DNA of 64,000 nucleotides. It comes from Alphaproteobacteria bacterium. GTDB taxonomy: Bacteria; Pseudomonadota; Alphaproteobacteria; Micavibrionales; Micavibrionaceae. Location: NCBI GenBank assembly GCA_030432025.1, contig JAUIIA010000001.1, positions 1 through 64,000 of the forward strand, read 5' to 3'. The position numbers and the translations under genes were made by a program. Of the stretch, positions 46,382 to 48,423 are shown one piece after another; the stretch's first letter is position 1, and every line of letters starts with the position of its first letter. Below the pieces are notes generated by a model that saw only the letters and a program-made list of their open reading frames with translations, searched no databases and was not told the origin of the DNA.

Positions 46382-46813
46382 TTACTGTTGGTCGGTACGA
46401 AGCCGTATCAAAGCACGGTCCATCATTCTTCCAATTTCAGGCGCAATTTTAGAATTGAGCAAGCGTTGCTTGTCACTGGCGCTTTGTGCTTCGGGTTTGG
46501 AGTAATACTCCACCATGGCTTCAAGCTCTTTGAGCGTGAAGGTTTCGGCATATGCATCCACCGCGACCTTTTCCAGCGCAGCAGGATTCATCAAACGCCT
46601 CATAGCCGTACGGAAAATTTCCTTATCTTCTTCGGATGCTGCAAGCAGATAGTTTTGAACATAAACGTCGATAGCGCGATCAACTTGTGCCTGTACAGGG
46701 CGGATTTCCATCATGCGTTCGGCCAACTCCAAACGCTGAAGAAAATCATCTTCTTGAGCCGACGCGAGCGCCGGCAACAAGAGAATAGTTAAAGCGATTA
46801 GGCGAACAAGCAT
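46382..46813 (-). CDS. DUF2059 periplasmic protein
   Basis: A 143-residue exported protein with a signal peptide (cleaved after ASA, about residue 19). The mature part is helical, with YAETFTLKELEAMVEYYSKPEAQSASDK, the end typical of DUF2059. Role unknown. It is between ssb (3 bp) and the symporter gene (12 bp), all on the minus strand. Confidence 0.82.
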   Translation of the reverse strand: MLVRLIALTILLLPALASAQEDDFLQRLELAERMMEIRPVQAQVDRAIDVYVQNYLLAASEEDKEIFRTAMRRLMNPAALEKVAVDAYAETFTLKELEAMVEYYSKPEAQSASDKQRLLNSKIAPEIGRMMDRALIRLRTDQQ

Positions 46814-46816
46814 GCC

Positions 46817-47305
46817 TTAGAACGGGATCTCGTCTTCCAGCTCATCCATTGGCGCGGCCTGAGTCTGGGACTGTGCAGGCTGTGCCGGAGCACCTTGGGA
46901 ATAGCCGCCGCTTTGGTTGTCGTTGAATGAGCGACCGCCACCCATGCTGTCACCGCTATTGCGGGAATCGAGCATTGTAAGCTCACCACGGTAAGGGCGA
47001 AGCACGACTTCGGTTGTGTATTTCTTCTGACCGTCCTGTTCCCATGAACGAGTTTCAAGCTGGCCTTCGATGTATACTTTGGAGCCTTTTTTCAGGTAGT
47101 TTTTACAAACATTCACAAGGCCCTGATTGAAAATAACAACGCGGTGCCATTCCGTTTTTTCACGGCGCTCACCTGTGGATTTATCTTTCCAGTTTTCAGA
47201 TGTCGCGACAGAGAGGTTCACAACCTCGTCTCCGCTTTGCATGCTACGCACTTCGGGGTCGTTCCCGAGATTACCTACTAAAATGACTTTATTGACTGAA
47301 CCGGC
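46817..47305 (-). CDS. ssb: single-stranded DNA-binding protein
   Basis: A 162-residue SSB. The OB-fold starts [18 protein letters not shown] and contains [20 protein letters not shown]; a Gly/Gln/Ala-rich linker follows and the conserved acidic partner-binding tip DELEDEIPF ends the protein. The start is GTG 47305, 7 bases after AAGGAG; an ORF extension to 47356 would add 17 residues unlike the family. Confidence 0.95.
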
Positions 47306-47425
47306 CACGTCTTTACTCCTTAGAATCTGTGATTGAACCCCTACTATAGACCTCACCGAACGTGCGCAAAAGCCTTAATTTACAGTTATACCGAAGCAGC
47401 TTGTTGACCGAATAAAGGGATTCCA

Positions 47426-47455
47426 TTGACGGGAAAATTTCGAATCCCATATCAT
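47426..47455 (+). promoter_or_regulatory. sigma-70-type promoter of the 32-codon microgene
   Basis: TTGACG (47426-47431), 18 bases, TATCAT (47450-47455), 38 bases before the ATG. Confidence 0.5.
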
Positions 47456-47476
47456 GTATATAACGTCAACGTATAT

Positions 47477-47503
47477 GAAAGGAGGTGATCAGATGAATGA
47501 TCA
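47477..47503 (+). promoter_or_regulatory. extended Shine-Dalgarno with start codon in a hairpin loop
   Basis: GAAAGGAGGTGATC (47477-47490) is a 14-base exact complement of the bacterial 16S rRNA 3' tail. TGATCA (47486-47491) and a second TGATCA (47498-47503) can form a 6-bp stem whose loop GATGAA holds the ATG (47493-47495). Confidence 0.65.
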
Positions 47504-47591
47504 AGAACAGAGTTTAAAGGCCGGATACGACGCTAAACCGAAAGTTGGAACGATCGGCATTTGGTCCTCCCTGAAAGGGGCGGCGCGCTAG
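47493..47591 (+). CDS. 32-aa microprotein of unknown function
   Basis: A short gene of 32 codons from ATG 47493 to TAG 47589-47591, with an unusually perfect ribosome site. The peptide is charged in the first half (NDQEQSLKAGYDAKPK) and ends in an amphipathic/hydrophobic stretch (VGTIGIWSSLKGAAR). It has its own promoter and a strong terminator at 47653-47687. Inside the transcript, AGGCCGGAT (47518-47526) can pair perfectly with ATCCGGCCT (47614-47622), and TAGCC/GGCTA (47589-47609) forms a hairpin at the stop, so the RNA is structured and may itself be functional. I know no family for the peptide. Confidence 0.55.
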   Translation: MNDQEQSLKAGYDAKPKVGTIGIWSSLKGAAR

Positions 47592-47652
47592 CCAGAGTTA
47601 TTCAGGCTACATAATCCGGCCTGAAACATAGTTAAGATCACAGTATCTACGG

Positions 47653-47687
47653 AAAACCCTGCGGGAAATGCCCTCGCAGGGTTTTTC
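47653..47687 (+). terminator. terminator of the microgene
   Basis: AAACCCTGCG (47654-47663), 11-base loop, CGCAGGGTTT (47675-47684) plus further T. On the minus strand the A-run also gives a T-run, so it can serve the convergent GST gene. Confidence 0.8.
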
Positions 47688-47697
47688 TGTTATCGGG

Positions 47698-48324
47698 TTA
47701 AGCGGCCAGAGCTTTGTATTCGATTTCTTCAGTCGCGATTGCGCGTTGGTAAGCCGGACGACCGGTTACGGTCTTCAGAAGCTCTTTTGTTTTTGGTCCG
47801 AAGGTCGGCTTGTGCGGGAAGAAGTCCCAGTTAGCAACGACGGCGACATAGATGTCCCCTGCCGTGAAGCTTTCCCCGCATAAGTATGGGCCGCCGCTAT
47901 CGGTCAGTTGCTGTTCAATAAGGTCCCATTGTGACTGAATGGCATCGCATGCGATTTTTATCGCCTCATCGCCCAGATCGTTTTTCTTACAGAACAGCGC
48001 CTTGCCGTATGCGGGGTGCAATGTGGAATTGGCATACATCAGCCATTGCAGGGCTTTGGCACGCTCATAACCTTCCGCAGGGATCAAATTTCCGCCATGC
48101 GCATCATTCAAATACACGATCATTGCCGCGTTTTCGGTGACAAGGCCATCAGGCGTCATAAGCGCACCGACCTGCCCACGCGGGTTGATTTTGAGATATT
48201 CGGGGGAGCGCTGTTCGCCCTTAGACAAATCAACTTTGTGTGTTTCAAAATCGACGCCCAGCTCTTCGAGTGTTACGTGGACCGACATGGAACACACGCC
48301 CGGTGAATAATAAAGCGTATACAT
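47698..48324 (-). CDS. glutathione S-transferase family protein
   Basis: A 208-residue GST. The thioredoxin-like N-terminal domain has YYSPGVCSMSVHVTLEELG (beta-class Cys10 position conserved) and the cis-Pro/Glu motif LVTENAAMIVYL (TENAA), then an all-helical C-terminal domain with SFTAGDIYVAVVANWD. It likely conjugates or reduces small electrophiles in the cytosol. It converges with the microgene across a shared terminator. Confidence 0.9.
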   Translation of the reverse strand: MYTLYYSPGVCSMSVHVTLEELGVDFETHKVDLSKGEQRSPEYLKINPRGQVGALMTPDGLVTENAAMIVYLNDAHGGNLIPAEGYERAKALQWLMYANSTLHPAYGKALFCKKNDLGDEAIKIACDAIQSQWDLIEQQLTDSGGPYLCGESFTAGDIYVAVVANWDFFPHKPTFGPKTKELLKTVTGRPAYQRAIATEEIEYKALAA

Positions 48325-48423
48325 AAATATGATCTCCTTCGCTTACCCATAAAATTATCGGGTAGATGACTAAAAGTAATTCAGCCTTTGCTTTTGACCA
48401 GTGTCGGCTCTATATATTTTTTC

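Follow-up and report, generated by a model that had tools for sequence, protein, structure and literature searches.

A conserved, structured and very probably translated small RNA gene of Micavibrionales with a putative function in trans

Main

In a 64,000-nucleotide stretch of an alphaproteobacterial genome (the window), we identified an RNA gene that is real, conserved and structured and is very probably translated; we ascribe to it a putative function in trans. Its Shine–Dalgarno (SD) sequence, a covarying long-range helix, its reading frame and its stand-alone position are conserved, and protein-type constraint is absent. Our best explanation, which we hold with moderate confidence, is that the gene encodes a stand-alone, structured and translated riboregulator, the fold of which is gated by ribosomes and the peptide of which is a by-product; its transcription, its ribosome gating and its action in trans are what we infer. 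As far as Rfam goes, the gene founds a new Micavibrio-type family that is near the CC2171 RNA in layout without being a scored member of it.

Gene layout and surroundings

The gene lies on the forward strand of a 2.44-Mb assembly, between ssb (reverse strand, start near 47311) and a reverse-strand gene at 47698-48324, convergent to it, which we take from its sequence type to encode a GST. A sigma70-like promoter (TTGACG-18-TATCAT; 47426-47455) precedes it, and promoter-like boxes of similar type, judged by eye, stand upstream of several relatives. The 14-base SD GAAAGGAGGTGATC (47477-47490) is followed by the 32-codon mini-ORF MNDQEQSLKAGYDAKPKVGTIGIWSSLKGAAR (47493-47591; ATG 47493-47495, TAG 47589-47591). 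Codons 3-12 carry the 5′ strand of the long-range helix (GAUC, AAC, GUUU and AGGCCGGAU; 47499-47526), and the 3′ strand (AUCCGGCCU, GAAAC, GUU and GAUC) occupies 47614-47639. Hairpin A (GAUC and GGUC around the loop GGCAUUU; 47552-47566) coincides with codons I-G-I-W-S, and is followed by the anti-SD word CCUCC (47566-47570) and by hairpin B (CUCCC..GGGG; 47567-47581), which is mostly paired with several pairs broken.

The preliminary description had proposed a hairpin at the stop codon and a strong terminator, and both can be read in the window: UAGCC pairs with GGCUA (47589-47593 with 47605-47609), and the intrinsic terminator (47657-47686) consists of a stem (47657-47665 with 47673-47681), a U run and a 7-base loop, AAAUGCC (47666-47672), that is the complement of the hairpin A loop. 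A conserved GUAUCU (47643-47648) could pair with AGAUG at the start codon. The folding energy of the stretch is −74.8 kcal/mol, compared with −57.7 (s.d. 4.6) for shuffled sequences (z −3.7), a difference to which the terminator contributes.

Relatives in the order

With a DNA pattern allowing up to 3 mismatches, the gene was found in 12 of the 142 genomes of the order, the source genome included, and the reversed-pattern control gave none; the absence of conservation that the preliminary description had named as grounds for rejection thus did not occur. A protein search recovered it in 10 of the 142. A covariance model (R1) strongly matched the identical 12 (E 2e-70 to 8e-17); its best match in 12 further genomes had an E value of 0.003 and was judged to be chance. 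The gene is present once per genome, and within the genus only 5 of 7 genomes carry it. The idea that other ssb loci of Micavibrio contain diverged copies was considered and rejected, as R1 run on 33 such loci gave 4 strong matches, all known already, and the eight upstream regions inspected at Micavibrio ssb loci contained neither GGAGGTG nor AGGAGGT. A search of viral contigs yielded no matches.

Eight of the 12 copies have ssb nearby, with uvrA or GST, and four are located elsewhere, so the gene is not tied to any particular downstream neighbour. This bears on the idea that the RNA is a leader peptide with an attenuator for a downstream operon, for which the mini-ORF, alternative pairings and terminator are all present. 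The several contexts of the gene across relatives, and the opposite orientation of the neighbouring GST gene, make that arrangement very improbable.

A maximal Shine–Dalgarno sequence

The 16S tail of the genus, read in two of its seven genomes, is GGCTGGATCACCTCCTTTCT; a 16S gene with this tail was not found in the window's own assembly. Against that tail the 14-base match is exact, as had been proposed, and the predicted SD:16S duplex is worth −24.7 kcal/mol, compared with −6.6 for AAGGAG. The 2.44-Mb genome contains a single copy of the 13-base core, AAAGGAGGTGATC, which is exact in 11 of the 12 relatives; in the remaining one (L006), a single change retains a G-U pair to the 16S rRNA. Elsewhere in the source genome (L130; G000:C8, about 224172), GAAAGGAGGTGAT stands ahead of an ATG opening an ORF for a 35-residue peptide that, by eye, is basic and contains a cysteine; the gene described here is therefore not the only one with a long SD.

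Such a match, beyond what initiation needs and kept through the class, could also mark a non-coding RNA that uses its 14-base anti-16S stretch to bind 16S rRNA or the 30S subunit and has only an incidental ORF, and the pairing-preserving change in L006 fits that proposal. However, the frame and the length of the ORF are constrained and the SD–ATG spacing is that of a working SD, and we consider a purely rRNA-binding RNA improbable.

Two TGATCA copies (47486-47491 and 47498-47503) border a 6-base loop containing the ATG (TGATCA-GATGAA-TGATCA, 47486-47503), as first described, and may form a hairpin that presents the start codon. The hairpin is paired in the RNAalifold consensus and near-invariant across relatives (one A-U to G-U change), so covariation says nothing for or against it. 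The GAUC involved has two mutually exclusive candidate partners, one in the SD copy, as in this hairpin, and one in the pre-terminator copy. The heptamer GTATCTA is present in all 11 rows of the alignment described below (A1), and its pairing as GUAUCU with AGAUG is predicted in several single folds; the G-C pair is lost in L005, L006, L007 and L093.

Of 11 relatives in the order, 6 have the word CCTCC inside the ORF. Complementarity of the ORF to the SD was not significant in the order set (mean P 0.26), and the anti-SD word was rejected there as a significant complement of the SD; among the class-wide loci examined below, CCTCC is found in 6 of 22 ORFs, compared with 1.6 in shuffles (1/200).

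A conserved frame and a variable peptide

The reading frame is intact through every insertion and deletion in all 12 relatives. The distance from the ATG to the ATT codon is 60, 63, 66, 69 or 72 nucleotides in all of them, and that from the stop codon to TATCTA ranges from 40 to 103 with all residues modulo 3. The stop codon is TAG in 11 and TAA in L093. Counted pair by pair within the conserved blocks, codon changes number 45 synonymous and 131 non-synonymous, and single pairs give synonymous/non-synonymous counts of 2/10, 2/9 and 2/13. From the multiples-of-three spacing and the mostly non-synonymous change we conclude that the frame is conserved but the peptide scarcely so, and the conserved frame implies that the mini-ORF is very probably translated. 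In the comparison of codon conservation called for by the preliminary description, the frame is thus preserved and the encoded residues scarcely.

These data also bear on the possibility that the gene is a small mRNA with the 32-residue peptide as its product, in which structure would only tune translation and the strong SD would pay for opening the helix. The frame and stop are kept in all 12 relatives, and most keep the I-G-I-W-S block, in which codon position 3 is the most variable (entropy 0.193, compared with 0.078 and 0.078 at positions 1 and 2). Yet GGC ATT TGG within that block is letter-perfect, which fits hairpin A, and codons 1-11 lack the third-position excess typical of a protein, varying more at position 2 than at position 3 and never at position 1 (entropies 0, 0.38 and 0.286 for positions 1 to 3 in ten relatives, L091 and L093 excluded). 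Pairs differ mostly non-synonymously, the exception being the class look-alikes L145 and L146 (2 synonymous, 0 non-synonymous), and the look-alikes across the class (L145-L174) encode unrelated peptides of 18-36 residues. None of nine peptides matched Pfam or NCBIfam. We regard a peptide-product mRNA as rather unlikely. The earlier suggestion of a regulatory peptide is not supported, given the same codon changes, the missing third-position excess and the unrelated class peptides, although a peptide with the conserved I-G-I-W-S may yet be functional; the accompanying suggestion of a dual-function or translation-controlled RNA is well supported by the stand-alone position, the conserved frame, the covarying helix over the first codons, the stop hairpin and the terminator.

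The 32-residue peptide, read directly, is polar with no hydrophobic or membrane segment. In the hok and AapA1 type I toxin mRNAs, 5′–3′ long-range pairing controls a small ORF, and the closure seen here resembles theirs, as would suit a type I toxin mRNA silenced by such pairing and by an antisense RNA. In contrast to hok and AapA1, the peptide of the window gene is polar and unconserved and there is no sign of an antisense partner, a minus-strand promoter-like site not having been found in 46800-48400; a toxin mRNA is a highly improbable explanation.

A covarying long-range helix

The 9-bp pairing of 47518-47526 with 47614-47622 (AGGCCGGAT with ATCCGGCCT) that had been pointed out from the sequence is exact, and the helix covaries among relatives. 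We examined a structure drawn from L001 on a MAFFT alignment of 11 relatives (A1) of which L001 is itself a row; L093 was excluded as too divergent. On A1, 86.6% of cells are paired and 14 of 41 pairs show two-sided changes, which provides the co-varying bases sought in the preliminary description. None of 500 shuffles reached any of five measures of conservation with covariation, and one-column slides cut pairing to 57% or 46%. Because A1 misplaces the pre-terminator GAUC in L004, L007 and L091, helix 1 is undercounted. Unprompted, RNAalifold returned 42 pairs, 18 with two-sided change, the long-range helix included.

Individual replacements follow the helix. Serine/asparagine changes (G/A) at codon 7 are answered by C/U in the opposite strand (L003, L006 and L009), GGA/GGT in L007 is answered by TCC/ACC, and a GGA/GTA change in L010 is matched by its helix partner. 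In L091, from another family, the entire helix is replaced (AGCCTAAGTCAAAG with CTTTGGCTTAGGCT), and in L093 it is likewise formed from unrelated letters. All 12 relatives beat shuffles for the long-range pairing (P 0.003-0.04). L093 is a diverged copy that keeps the helix in new letters, has lost hairpin A and the W-S codons, and ends in TAA.

Among the local elements, the stop-codon hairpin (helix 6) has 93% of cells paired with one-sided changes only, and the terminator stem (helix 7) shows two-sided change in 7 of 9 pairs. The hairpin A stem is invariant in all 11 A1 rows and its loop is GGCATTT in 10 of them. The terminator loop AAATGCC is complementary to the hairpin A loop at 7/7 pairs in 8 of 12 relatives, and the stems differ greatly; among 34 seven-base words kept in at least 8 of 11 relatives, GGCATTT/AAATGCC is the sole reverse-complementary pair. 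A kissing contact between the two loops is thus plausible from the sequences. L003 retains 6/7 pairs (by eye), L006 5/7 and L008 4/7; no compensatory pair was seen among the relatives, L008 having altered both sides without restoring complementarity.

Predicted accessibility places the effect of the fold on the early codons. The AUG has an unpaired probability of 0.62 in the full RNA and 0.52 in an RNA cut at the stop codon, that is, it is no less open in the full RNA, so it is codons 2-11 rather than the AUG itself that the fold is predicted to close (0.32 in full compared with 0.51 when cut; 0.33 and 0.42 in the class). The SD is predicted to be more open in the full than in the cut RNA (0.54 compared with 0.29 in the order, 0.27 compared with 0.17 in the class).

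Look-alike genes across the class

The pattern GAAAGGAGGTGATCN{1,3}ATG occurs at 35 places in 34 of 385 class genomes, with none in the control; one genome (G153) has two such sites. Thirty class loci were opened, of which 28 lie outside the order; one of these 28, cut by a contig end, was dropped. Leaders containing CAAC or AACAA are found at 21 of 27 class loci and 9 of 12 in the order. An ORF of 18-36 residues is present at 21 of 22 loci after near-duplicates were dropped, compared with 5.9 in shuffles (0/300). Towards the ORF end, several of L145-L174 have words resembling GGAGCAACCUCC. Summed over the 27 class loci, five near-duplicates included and base composition uncorrected, pairing of each locus's own 5′ and 3′ strands amounts to −953.8, compared with −745.9 (s.d. 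24.4) when strands are permuted (0/20000); singly, 13 of the 27 beat shuffles at P 0.05. R1 run on 25 class loci gave 24 matches of 13.3-23.8 bits, mostly to the SD block, so common descent of the class set is not established. Thirteen loci that R1 matched weakly, in the order or elsewhere in the class, were inspected and most look like chance; two of them (L132 and L139) match CC2171 at 47.8 and 46.7 bits.

In Rfam, 19 of 20 class loci (20 of the 28 were submitted) match CC2171 at E ≤1, and for 13 of the 20 the match spans its whole length and scores 33-69 bits, compared with about 17 for the SD alone. The CC2171 model also gives false low matches of about 17 bits (16.9) opposite the 16S tail in many genomes (for example, L177, L178 and L179), and four of the 12 order relatives score 12.2-16.8 bits, not above that level. 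None of the 142 genomes of the order reaches 75 bits, the source genome has no match at E 10 and the window stretch none at E 5. Assignment of the window gene to CC2171 by score was accordingly rejected, with no match beyond the SD and the cut-off of 75 bits not reached; a His_leader match in the window (20.3 bits compared with 49) was set aside as chance. The window gene nevertheless shares the layout of the CC2171-matching loci, namely SD block, mini-ORF, long-range closing helix and terminator, a likeness of layout only and judged on those loci.

Nineteen named plasmid or chromid records carry the leader (Azospirillum 15, Skermanella 2 and Sphingobium 2), most with no annotated feature there; the Skermanella and Azospirillum copies opened have a GTG start. 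These are likely CC2171-like members, in genera that can be manipulated genetically, and look-alike genes appear to stand unannotated in many alphaproteobacteria.

Discussion

We propose that the gene specifies a small RNA of about 210-225 nt, one per genome, on which the maximal SD would load 30S subunits at the mini-ORF. In the predicted folds, the long-range helix would tie codons 3-12 to the stretch immediately upstream of the terminator, and a 30S subunit would dock at the exposed SD ahead of this closed ORF. On entering the ORF, ribosomes would have to open hairpins A and B as well as the helix, and they would terminate where the stop codon is itself in a hairpin. Two states of the RNA would result, one closed and untranslated, the other opened by ribosomes with the 3′ strand and the terminator loop free. 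In one of these it may act as a riboregulator in trans, with translation as the switch.

A broader proposal, which we consider unlikely, is that this is a class-wide alphaproteobacterial RNA whose conserved function is to be translated, CC2171 and the Micavibrio gene being two branches. Here the 14-base pairing would dock the RNA on the 30S subunit, and its open or closed state would signal the number of free, initiation-competent subunits and relay it in trans. In either case the gene offers a concrete example of an RNA gene in which frame and fold are kept and the peptide hardly.

Our literature search found nothing on the window gene or on CC2171 biology, the original description of CC2171 being beyond its reach, and the accessible portions of PMC12559287, PMC11005374, PMC5988900 and PMC5082802 contain nothing on the window gene. 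Translated small ORFs in alphaproteobacterial small RNAs are represented by Pos19 of Rhodobacter (PMC5036791) and by the attenuator RNA rnTrpL, encoding peTrpL, of Sinorhizobium (PMC10117765, PMC7298713). According to the parts of these reports available to us, Pos19 occurs only in R. sphaeroides strains and has an ORF of 150 or 135 nt for which the SD is only partly needed (PMC5036791), and rnTrpL is leaderless (PMC10117765), unlike the window gene with its maximal SD; those parts describe neither a maximal SD nor a long-range closure in either RNA. In Staphylococcus aureus, cryo-EM shows extended SD pairing beside CCUCC, on the start-codon side of the 16S tail, so an AU after the SD is usable by a ribosome (PMC13009471, in the portion available). 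There the extension is a general feature of start selection, predicted at about 30% of sites, whereas the 13-base core of the window gene occurs at one place in its genome. In Caulobacter, by the accessible text of PMC4117421, 75.4% of coding genes lack an SD.

Among the closest known RNAs is CC2171 (Rfam RF01867), a Caulobacter small RNA that has a perfect SD block, a stand-alone position and a terminator in common with the window gene. It is filed in Rfam as 'Gene; sRNA', and the window RNA gives no match to its model. Should CC2171-like genes prove to be translated, what is classed as an sRNA family would be ribosome-gated.
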